Assembly: GCA_003223555.1 (NCBI GenBank)
Contig: QHVM01000067.1
Location: 1 to 32,897 of the forward strand
Direction of reading: 5' to 3'
DNA: 32,897 nucleotides
Source: Acidobacteriota bacterium
GTDB taxonomy: Bacteria; Acidobacteriota; Vicinamibacteria; Fen-336
Shown here: positions 8,409 through 20,222 of the stretch, piece after piece
How positions within the stretch are numbered: position 1 is the first letter of the stretch
How the letters are laid out: each line of letters begins with the position of its first letter
Notes under the pieces: generated by a model
The model's input: the letters and a program-made list of their open reading frames with translations, nothing else
Databases searched by the model: none
What the model was told of the DNA's origin: nothing
Program-made: the position numbers and the translations under genes

Positions 8409-9033
8409 GCCGTCGCTCACGCTGGTGAGCGACCGGCGTCGGTTGCCGGGAGGCGATCTTCCCGGGCTGGCCGGGGCGGCGGCGCGGGCCGGAGTGGACT
8501 GGATCCAGGTCCGGGAGAAGGACCTCGCCGACCGGGAGCTGGCCCGGCTGGCCGGCGCGGTGATGAGGGCCGTGGAAGGAACGCCCGCGCGCGTGCTCGT
8601 GAACGGCCGTCCCGACGTGGCGGACGTGGCCGGAGCCGACGGGGTGCAGCTTCCCGAGGACGGGCTGCCGGTCTCGGAGGTGAAGCGCTCCTTCCCGCGG
8701 CTGGTCGTCGGGGCGTCCCGGCACTCGCTGGAGGGAGCGCGCCGGGCCGAGGCGGAAGGCGCTGACTTCGTCCTCCTCGGTCCCGTATTCGCCACCCCGG
8801 GCAAGGAGAGCCGGGTGCTGGGACTCCAGCGGCTGGCCGAGGCCGCCCGCGTGCTGCGTGTCCCGGTCCACGCGATCGGCGGCGTCAGCGCGGCGACGGC
8901 GGGGGCCGCGTGCGAGGCGGGGGCGCGCGGCCTGGCCGCCATCCGCGCGTTCCTTCAAGCGGACGTCGCGGAGGTGGTGCGCGAGTTGCGCGCGGCCGCT
9001 CGGACGGGCACGGGCGGGGCGCCGCCGGCGTGA
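8395..9033 (+). CDS. Thiamine phosphate synthase / TenI family protein
   Basis: A 212-residue (beta/alpha)8 protein of the ThiE/TenI superfamily. QVREKDL (residues 38-44), the HSLEGARRAEAEGADFVLLG block with GPVFATPGK, and AIGGVSAAT are recognisable. The segment GVQLPEDGLP and the missing GxHxG signature resemble TenI (thiazole tautomerase) more than classical ThiE. The usual NDR or NDD motif reads NGRPD. The protein may therefore act in thiazole isomerisation or be a divergent ThiE; no other thiamine gene is nearby. Its TGA overlaps the next start (GTGA at 9030-9033). Confidence 0.8.
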   Translation: MTAREPSLTLVSDRRRLPGGDLPGLAGAAARAGVDWIQVREKDLADRELARLAGAVMRAVEGTPARVLVNGRPDVADVAGADGVQLPEDGLPVSEVKRSFPRLVVGASRHSLEGARRAEAEGADFVLLGPVFATPGKESRVLGLQRLAEAARVLRVPVHAIGGVSAATAGAACEAGARGLAAIRAFLQADVAEVVRELRAAARTGTGGAPPA

Positions 9034-10496
9034 GCTACCTGTGGCTCGTGTTGCCCGCCGGCCTGGCCCTCACGCTGGCGGTGGCCCGCCTCGCCCAGCT
9101 GCGGCCCTCGTTCCGGCCGCTGGTGGCCCCCTTCGCCGTCTCCACCCTGGGCCTGGCGGTATGGGTCCTCGTGGCCGAGGAGCGCCTCGCTCCTTCGAGC
9201 TGGGTGGTGCTCCTGATCCTGATCCCGTTCCTGATCCTCTTCGTGCGGGCGACGGTCATCGCCTTCCAGGCGCTCTTCCGCCGCCGGCAGGGCGCGGCGC
9301 CGCCCGCCCTGCTCGAGAGCGTCATCTCGGTCCTGCTCTATGGCATCGGCGCGGCGGTGGTGGCCCACCGCTGGTTCGGCATCGAGCTGACGCTCTTCCT
9401 CGGCACCTCGGCGGTCGTGGGGGCGGTGGTCGGTCTCGCCCTCCAGGACAGCCTGGGGAACCTCTTTGCCGGGATCGCGCTCCACACCGAGGCTCCGTTC
9501 CGGGTGGGCGACTGGGTGAAGGTCGGCGACCGCGACGGGCGGGTGGAGCAGATCTCGTGGCGGGCGACCCGCCTGCGCACGTGGGACGGCGATACGCTCA
9601 CGGTGCCCAACGGCGACGTGGCGCGGCACGCCATCCTCAACTACAGCGTGCCCCGGGGGCCGCACTCCCGCGTCCTGATCATCGGCGTCAACTACCACAC
9701 CCCGCCGAGCAAGGTCGTCACCGTCCTCCAGGGCCTCCTGGGCCAGGTCCAGGGCCTCGTCGCCGATCCCGCGCCCGTGGTGCGCATGATCGCCTACGAC
9801 GACTTCGCCATCCGATACGAAGTGCGCTACTGGGTGCCCGGCTACGACGAGTATCGGCGGATCGAAGGCGAGATCAACCGTCTCGTGTGGTACCACTTCC
9901 GCCGCCACGGCGTCGAGATCCCGCTCCCCATCAGCAACGTGTACGTCCATCAGGCGGAAGCCGAGGAGGGCGCGCAGGCTGCCGGCAGCCGGCTCGAGCG
10001 GGCGCTGCGGGCGGTCGACCTGTTCCGCCCGCTCAGCGACGACGAGCTGCGGGCGGCCGCTTCGCGCTTCCGCACGCTGCACTACGCGGGAGGCGAGAAG
10101 ATCATCGAGGAGGGAGCGCCGGGAGACAGCTTCTTCCTCATCGACCGCGGCGAGGTCCAGGTGTCGAAGAAGATGGGCGGCTACCCGCGCGAGCTGGCGC
10201 GGCTCATGGAGGGCCAGTTCTTCGGGGAGATGGCCCTGCTCACCGGGGAGCGGCGGGCGGCGACGGTGGTGGCGGCCACCGACGTGGACCTCTTCACGCT
10301 CGACAAGCACGGCTTCCAGGACATCATCGCCGCGAACCCCGCCATCGCGGTGGACATCTCCAGCATCCTGGCCGAACGGCGCGAGGCCCTCAGCCAGGCC
10401 GAGGGCGACGTCACCCACCGCTTCGACGTCCAGAGCAACCCCGGCGAGCTGAAGCGGCGCATCCTCGACCGCATCCGGCGCTACTTCGGGATCTGA
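9030..10496 (+). CDS. MscS-family channel fused to a cyclic-nucleotide-binding domain
   Basis: A 488-residue protein starting at GTG 9030. Four hydrophobic helices lie at about 3-22, 32-50, 56-78 and 93-113. The MscS pore helix and beta domain follow: FLGTSAVVGAVVGLALQDSL (123-142), FAGIALHTEAPFRVGDWVKV and VPNGDVARHAILNYS. A C-terminal cNMP-binding domain spans residues 329-445, with FFGEMALLTGERRAATVV (397-414). This cassette retains the glycine, glutamate and arginine of real cAMP/cGMP binders, unlike the small protein at 309-770. Such proteins are ligand-modulated small-conductance channels (the bCNG group). The next gene follows with no spacing. Confidence 0.93.
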   Translation: MSYLWLVLPAGLALTLAVARLAQLRPSFRPLVAPFAVSTLGLAVWVLVAEERLAPSSWVVLLILIPFLILFVRATVIAFQALFRRRQGAAPPALLESVISVLLYGIGAAVVAHRWFGIELTLFLGTSAVVGAVVGLALQDSLGNLFAGIALHTEAPFRVGDWVKVGDRDGRVEQISWRATRLRTWDGDTLTVPNGDVARHAILNYSVPRGPHSRVLIIGVNYHTPPSKVVTVLQGLLGQVQGLVADPAPVVRMIAYDDFAIRYEVRYWVPGYDEYRRIEGEINRLVWYHFRRHGVEIPLPISNVYVHQAEAEEGAQAAGSRLERALRAVDLFRPLSDDELRAAASRFRTLHYAGGEKIIEEGAPGDSFFLIDRGEVQVSKKMGGYPRELARLMEGQFFGEMALLTGERRAATVVAATDVDLFTLDKHGFQDIIAANPAIAVDISSILAERREALSQAEGDVTHRFDVQSNPGELKRRILDRIRRYFGI

Positions 10497-11243
10497 ATGC
10501 GCCCTGCCCTCGGGTCCGACGTCGACGCGCTCTTCGCCGAGCTGCTGCGGGCGGGGGAGCAGGAGCCCCGGCTGCGCGCCGCCCTGGCCGGGAGCAGCCT
10601 CGACGCGCCCTCGATGATCTCGCTCCTGCGGCGGGCGGTGCCGGTCCGTTTCCTGGAGATCGTGGCCGCGACGCCGCCCTACGGCGACGACGCGCGCGTG
10701 CTGGCGGCGGTGGTCCTCAACCCGCGGGTGCCCCGGCCGCTGGCCCTGCGCCTGGTGTCGTCGCTCTTCTGGCGCGACCTGGCCGACGTGGCGGCGGGTC
10801 CCCACGTGGCCGGGGCCGTGCGGGTGCGGGCCGAGGGCGTGCTGAAGGAACGGCTGCCCGAGCTGCGCGTGGGCGAGAAGGTGACGCTGGGCAAGATCGC
10901 CACCCCGGCCGTGCTCGCCGGCCTGCTCGCGGACCCCGAGGCGAAGGTCATCCGCGCCTGCCTGCAGAATCCCCGCCTCCGCGAGGAGGACCTCGTGACG
11001 GTCGTGCGCCAGGACGCCGCTCCCCGCGCGCTGCTCGAGGCGGTGCCGGAGTCGTGGCGTTGGCGCGACAGCTACGCCATGCGGCTGGCCCTGGTCCTGC
11101 AGCCGCGGACGCCCCTGGCAATCGCGCTGGCGCAGATCTCGTCGCTGCTGCCCGCCGACCTCGCCCGCGTGGCGGAGGCGCCCGGGCTCGCTCCGCTCGT
11201 GCAGATCGCCGCCCAGAGGGTCGCGGGACGGGAGCCCTCGTGA
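10497..11243 (+). CDS. HEAT-like helical repeat protein A
   Basis: A 248-residue all-helical protein starting directly after the previous stop. There is no signal peptide or membrane segment. It contains GEKVTLGKIATPAVLAGLL then DPEAKVIRACLQNPRLREED, a helical-repeat pattern in which each pair ends in an asparagine-proline turn. A closing segment RTPLAIALAQISSLLPADL parallels the C-terminus of the protein at 12143-13219 (RTPIAISLGLVSRLNPRDI), so the two are paralogous. No enzymatic motif is seen; probably a protein-interaction scaffold. It ends 33 bp before the next promoter. Confidence 0.72.
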   Translation: MRPALGSDVDALFAELLRAGEQEPRLRAALAGSSLDAPSMISLLRRAVPVRFLEIVAATPPYGDDARVLAAVVLNPRVPRPLALRLVSSLFWRDLADVAAGPHVAGAVRVRAEGVLKERLPELRVGEKVTLGKIATPAVLAGLLADPEAKVIRACLQNPRLREEDLVTVVRQDAAPRALLEAVPESWRWRDSYAMRLALVLQPRTPLAIALAQISSLLPADLARVAEAPGLAPLVQIAAQRVAGREPS

Positions 11244-11276
11244 GGCTGCAAACCATTGCCCCTTCGCCAGATAGAT

Positions 11277-11306
11277 TTGACACTCGGCCGAGCCGGTCGC
11301 TACAAT
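11277..11306 (+). promoter_or_regulatory. Sigma70-type promoter for the rodZ-like gene
   Basis: TTGACA (11277-11282), 18-bp spacer, TACAAT (11301-11306). The -35 is perfect and the -10 matches 5 of 6. It lies in the only sizeable gap of this stretch, 57 bp before the ATG at 11363. It probably starts a unit comprising the RodZ-like, HEAT-like and DnaJ genes. Confidence 0.75.
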
Positions 11307-11362
11307 CCCGCCTGAACCGTCGCCGCACCCCCCGAGAAGTCGCCATCGCTGAGCCCTCGGAC

Positions 11363-12127
11363 ATGGCCTCCTTCGGTGAGAACCTCCGCCGTGAACGCGA
11401 GCTGCGCGGCGTCGACCTGCGCGAGATCGCGAACGCCACCAAGATCAGCGTGCGCTTCCTGCAGGCGCTGGAGCAGGACCGGGTAGACGTCCTGCCCGGC
11501 GGCATCTTCCCGCGCTCCTTCGTACGCCAGTACGCGAAATACCTGGGCCTCGACCCCGACCGCATGGTCACCGAGTTCGACCACGTCTACGGCGCGGAGC
11601 CGGCGGTCCCGAAGTCCGCCGTCCCGAAGCGGCGCCGCTCGGACGCGCGGCCGGTGCTGGTCGTCGCGGGGCTGCTGCTCCTGGCCGGGGTCGGGTTCCT
11701 GGCCTGGAAGACCTCCCGGCCCGTCCCGGCGGCGGCCGGCGCACAGCCCTCGGCGGTCCTGCCTCCGCCCAGCTCGTTCCCGCCCGACCGGGTGTACCCC
11801 CCGCCCACGCCGACGCCCAACGCCGCTCCGGCCGCGGGAGGGGTCCAGGGCCTCGTCCTCGTCCTCACCGCGAAGCAGGATTGCTGGACGGCGGTGCAGG
11901 CCGACGGGGCCAAGCGGCTCGACCGCGTCCTCAAGGCGGGTGAGAACGTGACGCTCAACGCGCAGAAGGAGATCGTGCTCAGCGTGGGCAACGCGGGGGG
12001 CGTGAGCTTCACCCTCAACGGGCGCCCCGGGGTTCAGCTGGGGCGCGAAGGCGAGGTCCGCCGGAACATCACCTTCACCCGCGATTCCATGGCGTCCCTC
12101 CTGCAGGAGGCCCCTCCGCCGCGGTAA
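11363..12127 (+). CDS. RodZ-like membrane helix-turn-helix protein
   Basis: A 254-residue protein with RodZ architecture. A cytoplasmic HTH_25 domain covers residues 3-70 (FGENLRRERELRGVDLREIA; FLQALEQDRVDVLPGGIFPR). A single transmembrane helix lies at about 97-115 (PVLVVAGLLLLAGVGFLAW), followed by a Pro/Ala/Ser-rich linker and a periplasmic DUF4115-like beta domain at 163-238 (LVLTAKQDCWTAVQADG). RodZ links MreB to the elongation machinery in rods. No mreB is in the window, so that role is inferred. The conserved FGENLRRERE begins right after ATG 11363; the same frame is open far upstream, but that stretch is a shadow of other genes. Confidence 0.88.
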   Translation: MASFGENLRRERELRGVDLREIANATKISVRFLQALEQDRVDVLPGGIFPRSFVRQYAKYLGLDPDRMVTEFDHVYGAEPAVPKSAVPKRRRSDARPVLVVAGLLLLAGVGFLAWKTSRPVPAAAGAQPSAVLPPPSSFPPDRVYPPPTPTPNAAPAAGGVQGLVLVLTAKQDCWTAVQADGAKRLDRVLKAGENVTLNAQKEIVLSVGNAGGVSFTLNGRPGVQLGREGEVRRNITFTRDSMASLLQEAPPPR

Positions 12128-12142
12128 CTGCGGCGGATCCCC

Positions 12143-13219
12143 ATGGCCGAAGCCCGCATCGTCAATCCCCTGGTCGAGCAGTTCCGGCACGGCAAGGTCC
12201 CGCGCGACCTCCGCCTGATGGCCGCCCAGGGCGCGCTGCCGCTCGGGCCCGCCGACCTCGCCGACCTGCTGGAACTCCTCCTCCACGACGTGGACCCGGA
12301 CATCCGCGAGCAGTCCTCGGCCACGCTGCTGGCCCTGCCGGCCGCGGAGATGCGCGCCCTGGCGAAGGACCGCAGCTCGGCGCCGGCGCTGCTGGCCTGG
12401 ATCCTCGCCCACCGGCCGGAGGGCGACCTGCGCGAAGCGGCGCTGCAGAACACCACGCTGGCCGACGAGGCGATCGAGGCCCAGGCGGCGTCGTTGCCGG
12501 AGGAGCTGGCCGAGCTGGTGGTCATCAACCAGGTGCGCCTGCTCCGGCGCACGTCGCTGCTCGAAGCGCTGGAAGCGAATCCGAACCTCAGCAACGACCA
12601 GCGCCGCCGCCTGCGCGAGCTGAGGGAGAGCTTCCACATCGGCGAGCAGCCGCCGGCGCCGGCCGCTCCCCCTCCCGCGCCGGAGCCCGCCCCCGCTCCC
12701 GCGCCGGAAGCCGCGGAGCCGGAAGAAGAGCCACCGCCGCCCGCCACCGCTGCCGAGGCGGTGGCCCGTTACCTGTCCGAGGACGAGCGGCAGCAGGACG
12801 AGAAGGTCAACGCGGTGCAGCGGCTCTACCGCCTCAACACCGCGGAGAAGGTCATCGCCGCGCTGAAGGGGACGCGCGAGGAGCGGTCGGTTCTCGTCCG
12901 CGACCCGAACCGGCTGGTGGCGGCGGCGGTCCTGGGCAGCCCCAAGCTGACCGAGGTCGAGATCGAGTCCTTCGCCGGGATGAAGAGCCTGTCCGACGAG
13001 GTGCTGCGCCGGATCGGCAACCACAAGGAGTGGATGAAGAGGTACGGCGTGGTGGCGAACCTCGTCAAGAACCCCCGCACCCCGATCGCCATCTCTCTCG
13101 GGCTGGTGTCACGGCTGAACCCGCGGGACATCAAGGGCCTCACCACCGACCGCAACGTGCCCGAGGTGATCCGCAAGCAGGCCCAGAAGTTCATCAAGGG
13201 CCAGTCCGACAAGAAGTAG
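12143..13219 (+). CDS. HEAT-like helical repeat protein B
   Basis: A 358-residue protein of two helical blocks separated by a Pro/Ala/Glu linker (about residues 172-208). The N-terminal block has EQFRHGKVPRDLRLMAAQG and repeated leucine-rich helices. The C-terminal block has NTAEKVIAALKGTREERSVL, then DPNRLVAAAVLGSPKLTEVE and RTPIAISLGLVSRLNPRDI, matching the pattern in the protein at 10497-11243. It is soluble, with no signal peptide and no catalytic motif. It sits 15 bp after the rodZ-like gene and 1 bp before the DnaJ gene, so co-expression is likely. Function unknown; scaffold role inferred. Confidence 0.75.
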   Translation: MAEARIVNPLVEQFRHGKVPRDLRLMAAQGALPLGPADLADLLELLLHDVDPDIREQSSATLLALPAAEMRALAKDRSSAPALLAWILAHRPEGDLREAALQNTTLADEAIEAQAASLPEELAELVVINQVRLLRRTSLLEALEANPNLSNDQRRRLRELRESFHIGEQPPAPAAPPPAPEPAPAPAPEAAEPEEEPPPPATAAEAVARYLSEDERQQDEKVNAVQRLYRLNTAEKVIAALKGTREERSVLVRDPNRLVAAAVLGSPKLTEVEIESFAGMKSLSDEVLRRIGNHKEWMKRYGVVANLVKNPRTPIAISLGLVSRLNPRDIKGLTTDRNVPEVIRKQAQKFIKGQSDKK

Positions 13220-13220
13220 C

Positions 13221-13880
13221 ATGGCCGACTATTACGAGCTCCTCGGCGTCCCGCGCACCGCCTCGGGGGCGGAGATCCGCAAGGCGTACCTGAAGCTCGC
13301 CCGGGAGCGGCATCCGGACCGGTTCCCGGACCCGGTGGAGCGCGAGAAGGCCCAGGGCTTCTTCAAGGAGCTGACCGCGGCCTTCAACACCCTCGGCAAC
13401 GACCGGGGCCGTGCCGAGTACGACGCCGCCCTCGATCGGCCCCGGGAGGAGCCGCCGGCCGAGATCGCCCGCACCTCTTTTGCGCAGGGCATGGAGCGGT
13501 TCGAGAAGAAGGACTACCACGCGGCGGTCGAGCTGCTGCGCGCCGCCGTCCAGCACATGCCGGGCGACGCGCGCTATCACGCCGCGCTGGGTGTCGCCCT
13601 CGCCAAGAACCCGCATTGGGTGCGGGAGGCCATCCAGTCGGTGGAGAAGGCCACCCAGCTCGACCCGAAAAACGCCGCCTACCAGGTGGAGCTGGCCGAG
13701 ATGCTGCTGGGCCAGGGGCTGAAGCTGAGGGCGCGGCACCCGGCCGAGGTGGCGGCCCGCCTGGCTCCGCACGACCCGCGGGTGCAGAAGCTCGCCGCCG
13801 AGGTGGGTCTGGGGGGCCCCGAGGAGCCGCCCCGCCCGGAAGGAGGCGGCCGGCGGGGCCTGCTGCGGCGGAAGCCGTGA
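13221..13880 (+). CDS. DnaJ-domain protein with C-terminal TPR
   Basis: A 219-residue protein. The N-terminal J domain (residues 3-70) starts DYYELLGVPRTASGAEIRKA and has the HPD motif (31-33) that stimulates DnaK ATPase. There is no Gly/Phe region or zinc-finger, so it is not the general chaperone DnaJ. From about residue 88 come TPR-like helices (GMERFEKKDYHAAVELLRAA; YHAALGVALAKN). A basic tail closes it. Such J-TPR proteins usually direct DnaK to specific clients. It is the last gene before a 118-bp gap. Confidence 0.85.
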   Translation: MADYYELLGVPRTASGAEIRKAYLKLARERHPDRFPDPVEREKAQGFFKELTAAFNTLGNDRGRAEYDAALDRPREEPPAEIARTSFAQGMERFEKKDYHAAVELLRAAVQHMPGDARYHAALGVALAKNPHWVREAIQSVEKATQLDPKNAAYQVELAEMLLGQGLKLRARHPAEVAARLAPHDPRVQKLAAEVGLGGPEEPPRPEGGGRRGLLRRKP

Positions 13881-13908: not shown

Positions 13909-13937
13909 TTGCCCGTCCCGGCCTTTCATTGTCTACT
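13909..13937 (+). promoter_or_regulatory. Possible promoter for the phosphatase/kinase block
   Basis: TTGCCC (13909-13914), 17-bp spacer, TCTACT (13932-13937), each matching 4 of 6 consensus bases. It sits in the only gap before the PP2C gene. A GC-rich hairpin, GCCGGGGG (13951-13958) with CCCCCGGC (13971-13978), would lie in the leader, 21 bp before the ATG. This is the best candidate in the gap but weaker than the ffh and rodZ-like promoters. Confidence 0.4.
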
Positions 13938-13998
13938 GTGGCCGGCCGGCGCCGGGGGCGCACCTCCTGCCCCCCGGCCGCAGGGGTGGCCGCGCACG

Positions 13999-14763
13999 AT
14001 GAAGATCTCCTACCAGGCGGTCAGCGACGTCGGCCGCAAGCGGAAAGGGAACGAGGACAGCCTCTTCGTCAACCCCGAGCAGGGCCTGTTCGTGGTCGCC
14101 GACGGCATGGGGGGCCATGCCGCGGGGGAGGTGGCGTCGCGCCTGGCCGTGGACGCGATCAACGAGTTCATCTGCCTCACCGGCGACGACGAGGAGATCA
14201 CCTGGCCCTTCGGCCTCGACGAGACGATCTCCTACGACGGCAACCGCCTCAAGACCGCCATCCGCTATGCCAACCGCAAGGTGCTGGAGGCGACCAAGGA
14301 GAAGAGCGAGTACGAAGGCATGGCGACCACCGTGGCCGCCGTGTTGGTGGACGGCGACTCGGCCAACCTCGGCCACGTCGGCGACAGCCGGATCTACCTC
14401 CTGCGGGAGACCCGGATCACCCAGCTCACCACCGATCACTCGTGGGTGAACGAGCAGATCGTGAGCGGGCTCATCTCCCCCGACCAGGCCCGCAGCCATC
14501 CCCTCCGCAACGTCGTCACCCGCGCCCTGGGGGGCAAGACCGACCTGCAGGTCGACATGAAGGTCCAGAAGATCGAGACGGGGGACCTGCTCCTTCTCTG
14601 CTCGGATGGGCTCACGACCATGATGGGGGACGAGGAGATCGCGGGCCTGGTGTCGGAGGCGAAGGGCGACGTGGAGAAGGCCGCCCGCAGCCTGGTGGTG
14701 GCCGCCAACGCCAAGGGGGGGGAGGACAACATCACGGTCGTGATCCTGAAGTTCGGCGAGTAG
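13999..14763 (+). CDS. PP2C-type Ser/Thr protein phosphatase (Stp1/PrpC-like)
   Basis: A 254-residue PPM/PP2C phosphatase with the metal-binding motifs in order: SDVGRKRKGNEDS (residues 9-21), VADGMGGH (D35), GHVGDSRIYLL, CSDGLT and GEDNITVV. It is a Mn/Mg-dependent cytoplasmic enzyme that removes phosphate from Ser/Thr. The partner is probably the kinase encoded 8 bp downstream, a pairing common in bacteria. ATG 13999 was chosen because the family's N-terminus begins exactly there; the frame is open upstream without conservation. Confidence 0.95.
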   Translation: MKISYQAVSDVGRKRKGNEDSLFVNPEQGLFVVADGMGGHAAGEVASRLAVDAINEFICLTGDDEEITWPFGLDETISYDGNRLKTAIRYANRKVLEATKEKSEYEGMATTVAAVLVDGDSANLGHVGDSRIYLLRETRITQLTTDHSWVNEQIVSGLISPDQARSHPLRNVVTRALGGKTDLQVDMKVQKIETGDLLLLCSDGLTTMMGDEEIAGLVSEAKGDVEKAARSLVVAANAKGGEDNITVVILKFGE

Positions 14764-14770
14764 GGCCAAG

Positions 14771-16588
14771 ATGGGCACGGCGGGCCAGGCGCAGGGCCGC
14801 TACCGCAAGCGGATCGGCAAGTACGCGATCACCGGCCGGATCGGTCGGGGCGGCATGGGGATGGTCTACCGCGGCTACGACGAGGTCCTCGAGCGCGAGG
14901 TCGCGGTCAAGACCCTGACCCTCGAGGGCAGCCTGGATGAGGAGAGCCGGCGCCGCTTCTCGATCGAGGCCAAGGCGGCCGCGCGCCTCCAGCACCCGAA
15001 CATCATCACCGTCTACGAGCTGGGCGAGGACCGGGGCCTGCCATTCATCGCCATGGAGCTGCTGCCGGGCACGGACCTCGAGACCCTGATGCGCTCGGGT
15101 GAGCCTCTCATGCTCCAGGAGAAGCTCGACCTCGTCATCCAGGTCTGCCGGGGCCTCGCCTACGCCCACGACCACAAGGTCGTCCACCGCGACATCAAGC
15201 CGTCGAACGTGCGCGTCCTCGACGACGGCACCATCAAGATCATGGACTTCGGCATCGCCAAGCTGGGCGGGACGGGGGTCACCAAGACCGGGATGATGGT
15301 GGGCACCGTTCACTACATGAGCCCGGAGCAGATCCGCGGTCAGACGCTCGACGGACGGAGCGACCTCTTCTCGGTCGGGGTGATCCTCTACGAGCTGCTG
15401 GCGGGACGGCGGCCCTTCCCGGGCCAGGGCCCGACCGAGGTCCTGTACAAGATCATCCACGACGAGCCGCCGGAGCTGGAGCTGGCCGATCCGGGGGCCG
15501 AGGCGGCGGGGCTGCGCGACACACTGCGCCGCACGCTGGCCAAGGACCGCGAGCAGCGACCCCCGACCGCCGCGCGCCTGGCCGACGAGCTGGCAGGGAT
15601 CCTGGCCGGCCACCTGCGCTCGCTCTCCGCCGACACCTCGCCCGAGACCCGGGAGAGCGTCGCCCTCTCGCGACGCCTCCTGAAGGAAGGGCGGATCGAC
15701 GAGAGCGTCCGGCGGCTGCGTGAAGAGACCGAGAGCAACCCGCATTCGCTCGAGGTCCGCCGCGCGCTCCGGGCGGCCACGCGCGAGATGCGACGGCGCG
15801 AGCAGCCGGCGGCGCCTGTACCGGAAGACGACTTCCCCGAGCTGGACGCCACCTACCGTCCCCAGGCGGCGACCCTTCAGGCGCCAGCCACCCGCGTGGC
15901 GCCGGAGACCGTGATGCGGCCGACGGTGGTTCGGGACGGGCCGCGCGCCCGGCGGCCGGCGAAGATGCTGGCCGGAGCGGCGGCCGTGCTGGTGGTCGCG
16001 GTGGGCGCCGCAGCCGCGCTGCTGGCGCGCCGGGCGGCGCCGCCGGCGGACGGCCCGCCTTCGGCGGCACCGCGGCCGTCGCCGGCCCGGGTCGTTTCGG
16101 TGACGCCGCCGCCCATCGTCGCCCCCGAGCCGGCCAGGGCGACTCCCGGCTCGGCCGCCCCCCCGGTCACCGTTCCCGAGGGAAAGGTCAACGTCGTCTC
16201 CGCCTACCCGGTCGACGTGCTCTGGCGGGGCAAGCTGCTGGCCAGGGGCCAGGCCTCGCCGCAGGTCTCGCTCCCCGCCGGCCGTCAGGTCCTGACGCTG
16301 GTGTCCAGCGCGTTTGCGCTCCGGTCGAACGTCACGGTCGAGGTGCGCCCCGGCCTCCCCGCCGGGATCGAGGCGCCGCAGCTGGGCCGCATCAGCATCC
16401 GCGCCAACCCCGACAACTGCCAGGTGCTCGTCGACGGCGCCTTCCTGGACTACCCGCCGATCCTGGACAAGCCGCTCTCGGTCGGGCGGCACGAGATCGA
16501 GTTCCGGTGGCCGGACGGCGGACGCCGGCAGGAGACGGTGGAGGTGACGCGGGGCGCCCCGGCCTACGTCACGGGGCGCAAGGAGTAG
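14771..16588 (+). CDS. Transmembrane Ser/Thr protein kinase with PEGA-like C-terminus
   Basis: A 605-residue PknB-type kinase. The catalytic domain covers residues 18-285: glycine loop GRGGMG (25-30), lysine 47 in VAVK, HRDIKPSN (catalytic D141), DFG (159-161) and SPEQIRG. It is followed by a juxtamembrane stretch with a helical segment near 300-345 that may be TPR-like. One transmembrane helix lies at about 397-420 (MLAGAAAVLVVAVGAAAALL), followed by a Pro/Ala-rich spacer. Two PEGA-like beta domains (about 468-600; RISIRANPDNCQVLVDG) would lie outside the cytoplasm. The layout suggests kinase output controlled by an envelope signal. Genes for phosphatase, PEGA and FHA proteins flank it. Confidence 0.94.
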   Translation: MGTAGQAQGRYRKRIGKYAITGRIGRGGMGMVYRGYDEVLEREVAVKTLTLEGSLDEESRRRFSIEAKAAARLQHPNIITVYELGEDRGLPFIAMELLPGTDLETLMRSGEPLMLQEKLDLVIQVCRGLAYAHDHKVVHRDIKPSNVRVLDDGTIKIMDFGIAKLGGTGVTKTGMMVGTVHYMSPEQIRGQTLDGRSDLFSVGVILYELLAGRRPFPGQGPTEVLYKIIHDEPPELELADPGAEAAGLRDTLRRTLAKDREQRPPTAARLADELAGILAGHLRSLSADTSPETRESVALSRRLLKEGRIDESVRRLREETESNPHSLEVRRALRAATREMRRREQPAAPVPEDDFPELDATYRPQAATLQAPATRVAPETVMRPTVVRDGPRARRPAKMLAGAAAVLVVAVGAAAALLARRAAPPADGPPSAAPRPSPARVVSVTPPPIVAPEPARATPGSAAPPVTVPEGKVNVVSAYPVDVLWRGKLLARGQASPQVSLPAGRQVLTLVSSAFALRSNVTVEVRPGLPAGIEAPQLGRISIRANPDNCQVLVDGAFLDYPPILDKPLSVGRHEIEFRWPDGGRRQETVEVTRGAPAYVTGRKE

Positions 16589-16589
16589 C

Positions 16590-18042
16590 ATGGGCCGCCT
16601 GCTCGGCCTGGCCGCGGCGCTGGCGCTGGCGGGCGTCCCCGCGCTCGCGCAGCCGACCTCGCCCGACGAGCAGGCCCGCGGCCTGCTCGAGGACGGCCGG
16701 ACCTACCGCCGCGAGGGCAAGCTGAAGCAGGCCCTCGACAACTTCAACACCATCGTCACCGGCTTCCCCAACACGGAGTACGTCGACGATGCGCTGCTCG
16801 AGATCGGGCGCTACGAGATGGAGGTGGAAGGCAACGCGGACAAGGCCCGCGAGGCGTTCGAGCAGGTGACCAAGCGCTATCCGCAGAGCGACGGGGCGCC
16901 CGGAGCCTACTACTACCTCGGGCGGCTGACCCTCGACCGCGCCACCACGGCCGCCGAGCTCGACGACGCGCTGGCCCAGTTCGCGCGGGTGCAGCGGCTC
17001 TACCCCCGCAGCGAGTGGGTGGCCAAGGCGCTCTACGGGACCGCGCTCGCCCACCGCAAGGCCGGCCGCCTGCCGGAGACGGTGGAGGCGGCCCGCCGGG
17101 TGGCGCTCGAGTACCCGAGCAGCGACGCCGCTCCCGCCGCCCAGTTCCAGATCGGCCACGCGCTGGCCTTGATGGGCGAGCCGCGCCCGGCGATGGAGGA
17201 GTTCCAGCGGATCCGCAGCCGCTTCCCGGGGAGCGAATGGGCGCCGAAGGCGCTCGACCGCATCACGGCGCTCTACCGTCTCCACGGCCGCGGCAAGCCG
17301 GTCTTCACTCTCGATCCCGCCTACAGCGCGGGAGGCGGAGACGTGCTGAAGGACGTGCGGGCGATCCTCATGACGCCGGGACGCACGCTGTGGATCGCCT
17401 CCGACAAGGTGAAGGCCGTCGTGCCGGTGGGTCCGGACGGCAAGGTCGGCGGGAGCCTGAGCGGCGCCGATCTCCAGAGCCTGTCCCTGACCCCGGGCGG
17501 CGACCTCGTGGTGGCGGCACCTCCGCTCCTACAGCATCCCCACCGACAAGCCGGGCGTCACCGAGCCGCTGGAGAAGATCCAGGCCGCGGTCGTGACCCC
17601 GGGCGGCGTCACGCTCGTGGCCGACGACAAGCGCAAGCGGGTGTGCCGCTTCGACGCCAAGGGTCAGTTCCAGGGCCCGTTCCCCGATCCCCGGGAGCGG
17701 CAGGTCTCGCGCATGACCGTGGACGGCGAGGGCGGTATCGTGGTCCTGGACCGCGACCAGAAGACCGTCCAGGTCTACGACGAGGCCGGCAAGCTGCTGC
17801 GCGCGGTGGCGGCGCGCGGAGCGGGCTGGGAGCTGAAGCGGCCGGTCGACGTCGCCGTCGATCCCTTCCGCAACACGTACGTGGCCGACGAGGAGGGCTC
17901 GGTGTACGTCTTCTCGCCCGCCGGCCAGCTCCTGACCGGCATCACCGGCGAGCTGCGCAAGCCGAAGGCCATCACGCTCGATCCGACGGGGGCCGTCCTG
18001 GTTTACGACGAGAAACAGGAGAGGGTGCTCAAGTACAAATGA
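16590..18042 (+). CDS. Exported TPR / beta-propeller (NHL-like) protein, +1 frameshift near 17520
   Basis: Starts at ATG 16590, 1 bp after the kinase stop, with a signal peptide MGRLLGLAAALALAGVPALA. TPR units of the YbgF/BamD kind cover residues 25-235 (QALDNFNTIVTGFPNTEYVD). From about residue 250 a beta-propeller begins (VFTLDPAYSAGGG). The frame is lost near 17520: LVVAA is followed by nonsense, while YSIPTDKPGVTEPLEKIQ resumes in the next frame from 17530 and continues through VDVAVDPFRNTYVADEEGS to TGA at 18040-18042. Removing one C around 17520 restores a 483-residue protein. It overlaps the next gene by ATGA. Propellers of this kind bind proteins or ligands; specific role unknown. Confidence 0.8.
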
Positions 18043-20222
18043 TCCGCAGAGTCGTCGGCTTCCTGGCGCTGTTCGTGGTCGTGGCGGCGGCCGGGGGCGC
18101 GCAGGAGCCGCCCGCGCCGCCGCCGGCCGTGCCCGATGCGGTACAGCGCGAGCTGCAGGCCGTCCAGGACCTGCTCGCGCGCGCCACCGCGGAGTTCGAG
18201 GGGCCGCAGCAGAGCCGCTCCATCGTCATCCTCGACGAGATGATCACGCGCCTGGAGACCCTGCGGCGGGAGGGCACGCTGACGCCGCGGGGACGGGAGG
18301 TGCTCGCCCAGGCGTACGAGCTGCGCGGCCGCGCCTACTACAACATCGGTCTCCAGGAGAAGGCGGCCGACTCGTTCCGCTCGCTCATCCAGCTCCAGCC
18401 GCAGTACGCCCTCAGCAAGGAGAAGGTCTCGCCGAAGATCGTCGACTACTTCAACTCGGTGAAGAAGGCCCTCGTCGGCTATCTGGCGGTGTCGTCCAAG
18501 CCGGCCGGAGCGAAGGTCACCCTCAACGGCGAGTTCCTGAGCCTCACCGATTTCTTCCCGCTGGAGGTCCTGGCCGGCGATTACCGGGTGGAGATCGCGC
18601 GCGACGGGTATCGCACCGAGACCCGTACCGTCAGCATCGCCCCCCGGGCGACCGAGACGCTCGAGGTCCCGCTCACCCGGACCCTGGCCAGCGCGTTCTT
18701 CGTGACCGAGCCGGCCGGGGTCGAGATCTGGATCGACGGGGCGCGGGCGGCGACGACCGCCGGCGCCCTCGCCCCCGACCTGGTGCTGGCGGCGCGCGAC
18801 AAGGGCCTCGACCCGGCCCGCGCGTCGGCCCGGACGGAGGTCGGCGGGCTGTCGCTCGGCTCCCACGTGGTGGAGCTGCGCAAGAAGTGCCACGAGGTCG
18901 TGCGCAAGACCGTCGACCTGTCCGAGGCGAAGGACTACGAGATCGAGCCGGTGAAGATGGAGGAGTCGCTCGCCTCGCTGTCGCTGAAGTCCGAACCGCC
19001 GGGGGCCAGGATCTACCTCGACGGCGAGGCGATGGGGGTGACGCCGAAGGAGCTGGAGGGAGTGTGCTCCGGCAAGCACCGGGTGGAGGTCAAGCACGCC
19101 TCGGGCAAGTTCCTCCAGGACGTGGTCCTCGAGAGGAACGAGTCGCTCACCCTCGACTGCCCGATCCGCCCCAGCCTGGCGTTCCTGGGGGTGGTGGCGG
19201 AGAGCGCGGGGGGCGAGCGGGTCGTCGCCGACGTCCAGGAGGCGCTCGTCAAGAACCTCTCGAAGCTCACCACCCTGAACTTCCTTCCCGGCCCGAAGGA
19301 GACCGTCGACCGGATCATCGACGCTGACCGGCTCACCCGCAAGGGCCTGCTGCCCGGGGCGGGGACCGACCCCGACCTCATCCGCAAGGTCACGGAGAAG
19401 CTGGCCGCCGCCCTCGAGGTGCAGGGCTTCCTGCTCGCGGTCCTGCCGGAAGAGAGGCTGCAGCGGACGGCGGCCCTCCAGCTCCTGGCCGCCGGCAACA
19501 CCGTCGCCGACCGCTTCGACGTGGCCTTCAACGAGGCGGCGTCGTACCTGCGATTCCTCGCCGCCGTGGACCAGAAGGCCGCCGTCTACCATTCCTGGAC
19601 CGGGATCATCACCGTGGACACGCTGCTCCACGAAGGAGTGCCCATCCTGCGCCTGGCCGCGGGCGGCCCCGGCTCCCAGGCCGGGCTCCTGCCGGGCGAG
19701 GTGATCGATGCCGCCGAGGGCCGTCCCATCAAGCAGACCGCCGACCTGCTGGCGCTGGTCGAATCGAAGAAGCCGAAGGACAGGCTCGCTCTCCACGTGA
19801 AGGGCGCCTCGGCGCGGGCGGTGGAGGTCGTCCTGGGCCAGACGCCACAGGAGATCCCGCTCAACGACCCGGCACTGCTCTACAACAAGGTGATGATGGA
19901 CCTCCGGCAGCAGGTCGAGGGCTATCCCGGCACCGAGGCGGCCGCCTTCGCCCGGCTCAACCTGGCCGTGTGCGCCATGCATTTCGGCGACTTCGCGGCC
20001 GCCCACGAGCACCTCTTGAAGGCGCGCACCGAGCTGCCCCAGCGGCCGGGGATCTCGCAAGGGACGGCCCTGTACTATCTGGGTCTCGCCCTGGAGCGGC
20101 TGGGGTACAAGAAGGAGGCGGTCGAAGCCTACCGGGCGGCGGCGGCCGCGAAAGAGGCCACGCTCTTCGACAACGACGGGCCCGCGGTGGCGCCGCTCGC
20201 GGCGCGCCGGGCCGGACCGTAG
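18039..20222 (+). CDS. Exported TPR-PEGA-PDZ protein
   Basis: A 727-residue protein with signal peptide at residues 1-21. Order: TPR about 35-125; PEGA repeats near 148-212 (YLAVSSKPAGAKVTLNGEFL), 217-305 (FFVTEPAGVEIWIDG) and 312-375 (LSLKSEPPGARIYLDGEAMG); a domain at about 376-510 whose pattern (VVADVQEALVKNLSKLTTL) resembles CsgG/FlgO/TolB-N type domains; a PDZ domain at 520-597 (AAGGPGSQAGLLPGEVIDAA); and a second TPR at 635-710. It lacks protease residues. It is probably a periplasmic organising protein. It is coupled by overlap to the preceding TPR/propeller gene and shares PEGA domains with the kinase. The middle-domain call is the least certain. Confidence 0.82.
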   Translation: MIRRVVGFLALFVVVAAAGGAQEPPAPPPAVPDAVQRELQAVQDLLARATAEFEGPQQSRSIVILDEMITRLETLRREGTLTPRGREVLAQAYELRGRAYYNIGLQEKAADSFRSLIQLQPQYALSKEKVSPKIVDYFNSVKKALVGYLAVSSKPAGAKVTLNGEFLSLTDFFPLEVLAGDYRVEIARDGYRTETRTVSIAPRATETLEVPLTRTLASAFFVTEPAGVEIWIDGARAATTAGALAPDLVLAARDKGLDPARASARTEVGGLSLGSHVVELRKKCHEVVRKTVDLSEAKDYEIEPVKMEESLASLSLKSEPPGARIYLDGEAMGVTPKELEGVCSGKHRVEVKHASGKFLQDVVLERNESLTLDCPIRPSLAFLGVVAESAGGERVVADVQEALVKNLSKLTTLNFLPGPKETVDRIIDADRLTRKGLLPGAGTDPDLIRKVTEKLAAALEVQGFLLAVLPEERLQRTAALQLLAAGNTVADRFDVAFNEAASYLRFLAAVDQKAAVYHSWTGIITVDTLLHEGVPILRLAAGGPGSQAGLLPGEVIDAAEGRPIKQTADLLALVESKKPKDRLALHVKGASARAVEVVLGQTPQEIPLNDPALLYNKVMMDLRQQVEGYPGTEAAAFARLNLAVCAMHFGDFAAAHEHLLKARTELPQRPGISQGTALYYLGLALERLGYKKEAVEAYRAAAAAKEATLFDNDGPAVAPLAARRAGP

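Follow-up and report, generated by a model that had tools for sequence, protein, structure and literature searches.

Paralogous proteins with predicted alpha-solenoid folds flank a RodZ-like gene in a conserved operon of Acidobacteriota

The operon and its products

The 32,897-nucleotide contig QHVM01000067.1 of an Acidobacteriota bacterium (class Vicinamibacteria, assembly GCA_003223555.1), analyzed at its full length and referred to here as the window, carries an operon in which a gene for a RodZ-like protein is bracketed by genes for two homologous proteins, A and B. Genes for a protein with a J domain and tetratricopeptide repeats (TPR) and for a PP2C phosphatase follow (Table 1). The spacing is operon-like: the end of an MscS-type gene abuts the start of A, 119 bases separate A from rodZ, 15 bases rodZ from B, and a single base B from the J-domain gene. 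The original prediction, made from the letters of the window, had placed two paralogous proteins around a RodZ-like gene with a J-domain protein behind them, and this arrangement was borne out by the open reading frames, the protein comparisons and the domain matches described below.

Table 1. Features of the operon and its downstream neighbors in the window
Feature	Coordinates	Strand	Description
A	10497..11243	+	248-aa LRV-like alpha solenoid, paralog of B (basis: open reading frame, BLASTP, model, gene order)
RodZ-like protein	11363..12127	+	Cytoplasmic HTH_25, one hydrophobic segment, RodZ_C
B	12143..13219	+	358-aa putative adaptor: HEAT-like half (~1-165), Pro/Ala/Glu-rich linker, LRV-like C-terminal half (~203-357)
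J-domain and TPR protein	13221..13880	+	PF00226 (E 1.6e-17, 63.8 bits, cut-off 27.8), then TPR families
PP2C phosphatase, Stp1 family	13909..14763	+	NF033484 (256.7 bits, cut-off 230); coordinates are those of the open reading frame from its first start codon, homologous part starts near 13999
Ser/Thr protein kinase	14771..16588	+	PF00069 (3.6e-50)
TPR-PEGA-PDZ protein	16590..20222	+	PEGA (2.1e-22), TPR families; lineage-specific neighbor 3' of the kinase

A and B are homologous. BLASTP aligns them over 125 aa with 27% identity (E 2e-10), a second match (E 7e-6) pairs the end of B with residues 62-117 of A, and profile-profile comparison with hhalign extends over 221 columns (probability 99.4%, E 7.6e-22). 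When A is used as a query against the window's own genome, the only matches are A itself and B (3.4e-8). The RTPxAIxLxxxSxL motif that had been proposed as common to both is literally present in each, as PRTPLAIALAQISSL in A and as PRTPIAISLGLVSRL in B. In a tree that took in 100 of 102 core rows, the 52 B rows form a single clade across phyla (99/90), with A and the other paralogs outside; many A rows are long branches, and A as one clade is unsupported. The idea that A was derived from B within the window's family was rejected on the basis of this topology.

The AlphaFold model of A (pLDDT 94.5) is entirely helical, and that of B (pLDDT 92.3, pTM 0.52) consists of two helical parts with a low-confidence joining segment at residues 183-194. 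Neither protein has a transmembrane-like segment; A has one cysteine and B has none. Pfam and NCBIfam scans of A gave zero matches, as did the Pfam scan of B, HEAT and LRV/LRV_2 included. The statement that neither protein belongs to a known family thus holds in these databases, save for one low-complexity NCBIfam match of B far under the cut-off. Among 51 relatives of B, Pfam found HEAT_2 in 23 (E up to 1, best 4.9e-6), LRV_2 in 7 and DUF2336 in 1, all of them weak, and LRV was matched weakly by 5 of 30 relatives of A. Over all Pfam scans (51, 30 and 52 relatives) and the NCBIfam scan (52 relatives), there were weak repeat matches and scattered matches, no whole-protein family was found, and any family fitted at most single repeats of B.

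A sequence search of the PDB with B matched mostly within the Pro-rich linker. With the B profile, designed helical-repeat chains, among them several alphaRep proteins, were matched over positions 1-120 (best 2.3e-7). A profile search of the PDB with A gave zero matches. Foldseek found no PDB match at E <=0.001 for either model, and the VIA structure lists for both contain generic solenoids, none with Z >=8. One of the structural matches is 1lrv, the LRV protein of Azotobacter. It was found with A (Z 6.7, rmsd 8.4, 202 aligned) as well as with residues 220-351 of B (Z 6.1, rmsd 6.8, 119 aligned), each time level with numerous ARM/HEAT chains. The PP2A A subunit and other HEAT scaffolds are likewise matched, level with unrelated solenoids. 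Since Foldseek was empty at this threshold and the VIA lists were generic, function was not read from the folds. The models place A and B in the alpha-solenoid class, with similar predicted folds rather than structurally unrelated ones, and speak for likeness to LRV proteins, not membership among them. We take 1lrv to carry an Fe-S cluster, which, given the cysteine counts, cannot form in the same way in A or B. The HEAT-like label of the original prediction suits the N-terminal half of B, consistent with the designed-repeat matches and the weak HEAT_2 matches of its relatives, even though B of the window has no HEAT match of its own. It does not suit the C-terminal half of B, which has another repeat type: the segment common to A and B is closer to LRV repeats than to HEAT.

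The RodZ-like protein shares HTH_25 (E 3.1e-22, 78.6 bits, cut-off 24.6), a hydrophobic segment and RodZ_C (E 9.2e-17, 61.2 bits, cut-off 23.9) with RodZ of E. coli and T. maritima and with YmfM of B. subtilis. The hydrophobic segment, judged by hydropathy only, has its maximum of 2.32 at residue 97, and values of at least 1.6 are reached in 56/58 orthologs. The HTH part aligns to T. maritima RodZ (2wus_R, 7.4e-6), and an aromatic pair, presumably the MreB contact, is conserved as F or Y at both positions in 55/58 orthologs. With 56.4/375 and 34.5/208 bits in the NCBIfam equivalog models for RodZ, which are streptococcal and from E. coli, the protein does not qualify as an equivalog of either. 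Unlike the known RodZ proteins, some of the orthologs are without RodZ_C. Seven of the 58 are shorter than 175 aa (140-169 aa; L108, L112, L117, L121, L122, L135 and L060), all of them encoded upstream of B. In the four that were scanned (L108, L112, L117 and L121), HTH_25 was found each time and RodZ_C never, and B follows within 10 bases. As a short rodZ free of RodZ_C still adjoins B, a contact between the two proteins, if RodZ is indeed the partner of B, is more likely to involve the cytoplasmic or membrane part of RodZ. The window's genome contains a second strong HTH_25 match in another context (L331:2325-3965, G000:C125), which resembles the RodZ-like protein in the HTH part only.

Conservation in Acidobacteriota and relatives in other phyla

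The adjacency of rodZ and B is conserved far beyond close relatives, and much more widely than could be seen from the window. At class level, 25/29 loci carry B, and rodZ lies directly upstream in 24 of these 25, the remaining locus beginning at a contig end. In the window's family, the order A-rodZ-B-J-PP2C-kinase is contiguous in 12 of 13 relatives; the other (G002) has A, at a contig end, and rodZ-B on two contigs. In family f2 (G014 and G016, both contigs read), A stays with thiE on a contig separate from rodZ-B-J-PP2C-kinase, and eight loci of families f5-f9, f11 and f12 have rodZ-B with no matches for A, J, PP2C or kinase. In the phylum as a whole, the B profile matches 200/297 sampled genomes, partial and A-type matches counted, and B is immediately preceded by rodZ in 34/41 loci (33/40 families). 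The other seven are without rodZ, and at one of these, L140, upstream sequence is missing. The distance between rodZ and B is 30 bp or less in 50/57 loci, with an overlap of 1 or 4 bases in 16; a gap of -497 stems from a broken frame in L069.

The other genes of the operon are less constant. A is upstream in 22/41 phylum loci, PP2C downstream of B in 26/41, and the J protein after B in 13/41, so that PP2C is the steadier partner of the last two. These counts use stop-to-stop open reading frames, by which the PP2C of L107 was missed although it is visible in another reading. Eight further loci have no J match but an intervening gene between B and PP2C; of these genes, all of which were read out, the six that were scanned encode TPR proteins, none with a J domain. 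The window's J-TPR protein itself matches the full DnaJ model TIGR02349 at 61.7/377.2 bits, in the J domain only. The kinase was rejected as a fixed part of the module, being present in 2/40 phylum families besides f1, f2 and f10 (the window's family and two others) at class level. In f1, f2 and f10, the order of kinase and TPR-PEGA-PDZ protein is kept. Upstream of the module, the window has genes for SRP54, S16, TrmD, L19, RNase HII, a large TPR protein and thiE. The MscS-type channel gene between thiE and A (window 8910-10496), which includes a cNMP-binding domain, is found in the same place in only a few family members (L042, L045 and L069).

Some rows were left out of the underlying alignments: 5/26 B-listed rows in alignment A1 (frameshifted rows, one with an uncertain start, one that was an A gene), 4/41 phylum B rows in A3 and 6/23 phylum A rows in A4, besides some close rows in each of the latter two. 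Alignment A6 used 51/73 B rows, 7 B and 4 rodZ rows having been skipped beforehand.

Relatives of B also occur outside Acidobacteriota. The B profile matches 121/140 genomes from the phylum to which record L201 ('Myxococcota bacterium') belongs and 46/99 from that of record L187 ('Deltaproteobacteria'); the weaker matches outside Acidobacteriota include paralogs and proteins with the C-terminal core only. By their titles, 15 named records are not Acidobacteria-like. Three of them, L165 (Aminicenantes), L166 (B38) and L178 ('Acidimicrobiia'), have rodZ before B and presumably group with Acidobacteriota, L178 because of its gene order. This L178 record has the order thiE-rodZ-B as in Vicinamibacteria relatives, and the metagenome-assembled genome may be mislabelled. 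In 9 of the remaining 12 records, a gene for an MglA-like GTPase directly follows B; L184 and L194 have none, and L192 is at a contig edge. The GTPase of L187 matches M. xanthus MglA at 5.7e-65, and none of the other scanned loci (151 sources, including the open reading frames of the window and the Acidobacteriota loci) gave an MglA-like match. Among further loci, hand-picked rather than random (20 of the 121 and 20 of the 46 matching genomes), the GTPase follows B in 6/20 of one set and 8/20 of the other.

Paralogs of the family have surroundings of their own. Stand-alone C-terminal cores of B (~150-210 aa; L286, L287, L289-L295) are found directly or nearly directly 3' of an EF-G paralog in the L187 phylum, as a conserved pair of EF-G and LRV core. 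In 20 paralog loci of other phyla, 16 of which match the A profile better than the B profile, there is no rodZ match nearby; a DnaJ-like gene is at most three genes away in five, and a zinc-ribbon protein is encoded in seven. The zinc-ribbon proteins include a long Pro/Ala-rich stretch, and their genes are often close to or adjoin those of the A-type paralogs (L299-L301, L303, L305, L307 and L318).

A possible module for RodZ-dependent envelope growth

Starting from the gene order, the homology of A and B, their predicted folds and the domains of the RodZ-like protein, we infer binding events, a phosphorylation step and a role in cell shape. Our tentative model is that A, rodZ, B, the TPR or J-TPR gene and PP2C form an operon for a RodZ-centered, phosphatase-linked envelope-growth module of Acidobacteriota, with A and B as cytoplasmic solenoid adaptors. 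RodZ would span the membrane, its cytoplasmic HTH domain being able to hold MreB. B would be a soluble, two-armed adaptor, with HEAT-like and LRV-like halves on a flexible linker that could hold two partners, one of which is most probably either MreB or the cytoplasmic part of RodZ. A, an old paralog with LRV-like repeats only, might contribute a docking surface. PP2C, together with the adjoining Ser/Thr kinase in the window's lineage, would set how far RodZ or the adaptors are phosphorylated and thereby tune the activity of the Rod complex.

The model draws on the adjacency of rodZ and B at both levels of sampling, the short gaps, and the positions of A upstream and PP2C downstream. The alignment of the HTH part to T. 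maritima RodZ, the conservation of the aromatic pair and the persistence of the rodZ-B pair where RodZ_C is lacking fit with it as well. A precedent for the phosphorylation step comes from B. subtilis, where RodZ is phosphorylated by PrkC and phosphorylated RodZ leads to a higher density of MreB patches (PMC8270655). As in the PrkC/PrpC control described there, a Ser/Thr kinase and a PP2C are found near a RodZ-type protein. However, the two enzymes are encoded here in one gene cluster, and the kinase scores 314.8/450 bits against the PASTA-kinase model NF033483 and is thus below cut-off. The MglA-like GTPase that follows B in other phyla provides a further link, since M. xanthus MglA is reported to reach Rod complexes via MreB (PMC8144978). 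The difference is that neither the window nor the scanned Acidobacteriota loci have an MglA-like match. With RodZ in the operon, the MglA-like neighbor elsewhere and these published reports that connect RodZ and MglA to MreB, the cell-shape reading is plausible, though unproven. Literature searches, with most subscription papers outside their coverage, turned up neither an operon partner of RodZ that resembles A or B nor anything else bearing on these two; papers on RodZ and HEAT repeats were off-topic, and in the literature on MglA, B was not found as an Mgl partner. The original prediction of an uncharacterized scaffold set for cell shape or envelope assembly fares well for a RodZ-linked set of genes; the scaffold role goes beyond what the gene order says, and the J domain is a variable member of the set.

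Several observations weigh against this model. B is without rodZ in 6/41 phylum loci that have upstream sequence, and of 80 named loci, 35 have rodZ upstream; many of the others are from Pyrinomonadaceae/Blastocatellia, with a solitary B, and contig ends truncate some. In the two other phyla, rodZ is beside B in 0/40 of the hand-picked loci. Among 40 relatives, the window's own genome included, all 28 with B have a strong HTH_25 match (E at most 1.4e-18). Ten of the 12 genomes that lack B belong to family f3 and have no HTH_25 match or a weak one (best 7.9e-5), a joint lack that may be one event. The other two, from family f4, have rodZ with a strong HTH_25 match and no match for B: in G037, rodZ comes after thiE and is followed by unrelated genes, and in G018 the contig ends inside rodZ. 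RodZ can hence stand without B. Co-occurrence with MreB, scored by PF06723, does not discriminate, as it is seen in 297/297 genomes but also in 12/14 controls. The surroundings of the genes are a further point. In the window's class the module follows the ffh-ribosomal block, and in other phyla an EF-G paralog precedes B (in 15/20 loci of the L187 phylum and 3/20 of the other), and both kinds of neighbor would fit a role in translation equally well.

These neighbors make translation the main rival explanation. According to this view, which we consider unlikely, A and B would be scaffolds for translation or for the handling of nascent proteins at the membrane, with the RodZ-like protein as anchor and the J-TPR protein as a link to chaperones. 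The block of SRP54, S16, TrmD, L19 and RNase HII genes ahead of the module, the J domain in the window and the EF-G paralogs, which in those 15 loci are at most a few genes ahead of B or its stand-alone core, are in its favor. However, the ffh-ribosomal block was found beside the module in the window's class, the same probes (including ffh, TrmD and RNase HII) find none of it in the 41 phylum loci, the J domain is frequently absent, and the constant partners across the phylum are RodZ and PP2C rather than translation genes.

The steadiness of PP2C could alternatively mean that the genes encode a general Ser/Thr phospho-signalling unit, in which A and B are docking platforms for phosphatase and kinase and RodZ is one of many clients. 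This is rather unlikely in our judgment. It would account for PP2C downstream of B in 26/41 loci, for the kinase next to it in f1, f2, f10 and two more families, and for the likeness of the folds to the PP2A A subunit and other HEAT scaffolds, a likeness tied with that to unrelated solenoids; yet rodZ is the nearer and commoner partner of B (34/41), and the f5-f9, f11 and f12 loci have rodZ-B without PP2C or kinase matches. A reading in which the RodZ-like protein controls gene expression as an HTH regulator bound to the membrane, modulated by A and B and without a role in the elongasome, is quite improbable. HTH_25 is a helix-turn-helix family, RodZ_C is absent from all four short orthologs scanned, and the genome has its second strong HTH_25 match elsewhere, but the window's protein combines a hydrophobic segment with a RodZ_C match over cut-off, and the aromatic pair, presumably the MreB contact, is kept in nearly all orthologs.

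If the RodZ-centered model is extended to the other phyla, B could be the prototype of an ancient HEAT-LRV adaptor family whose members join lineage-specific regulators to MreB-based complexes for growth or polarity, namely RodZ and PP2C in Acidobacteriota and MglA-type GTPases in Myxococcota-like and related phyla. We regard this extension as unlikely; if it holds, three or more bacterial phyla would share in B a morphogenesis component that has so far gone without a name. B represents a widespread uncharacterized family, and the tight rodZ-B operon makes it possible to test whether a large, poorly cultured phylum employs dedicated solenoid adaptors and a phosphatase for RodZ. The MglA-like neighbor in other phyla offers a second, independent route to the adaptor question. 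A and B may thus be overlooked parts of the bacterial cell-shaping machinery.

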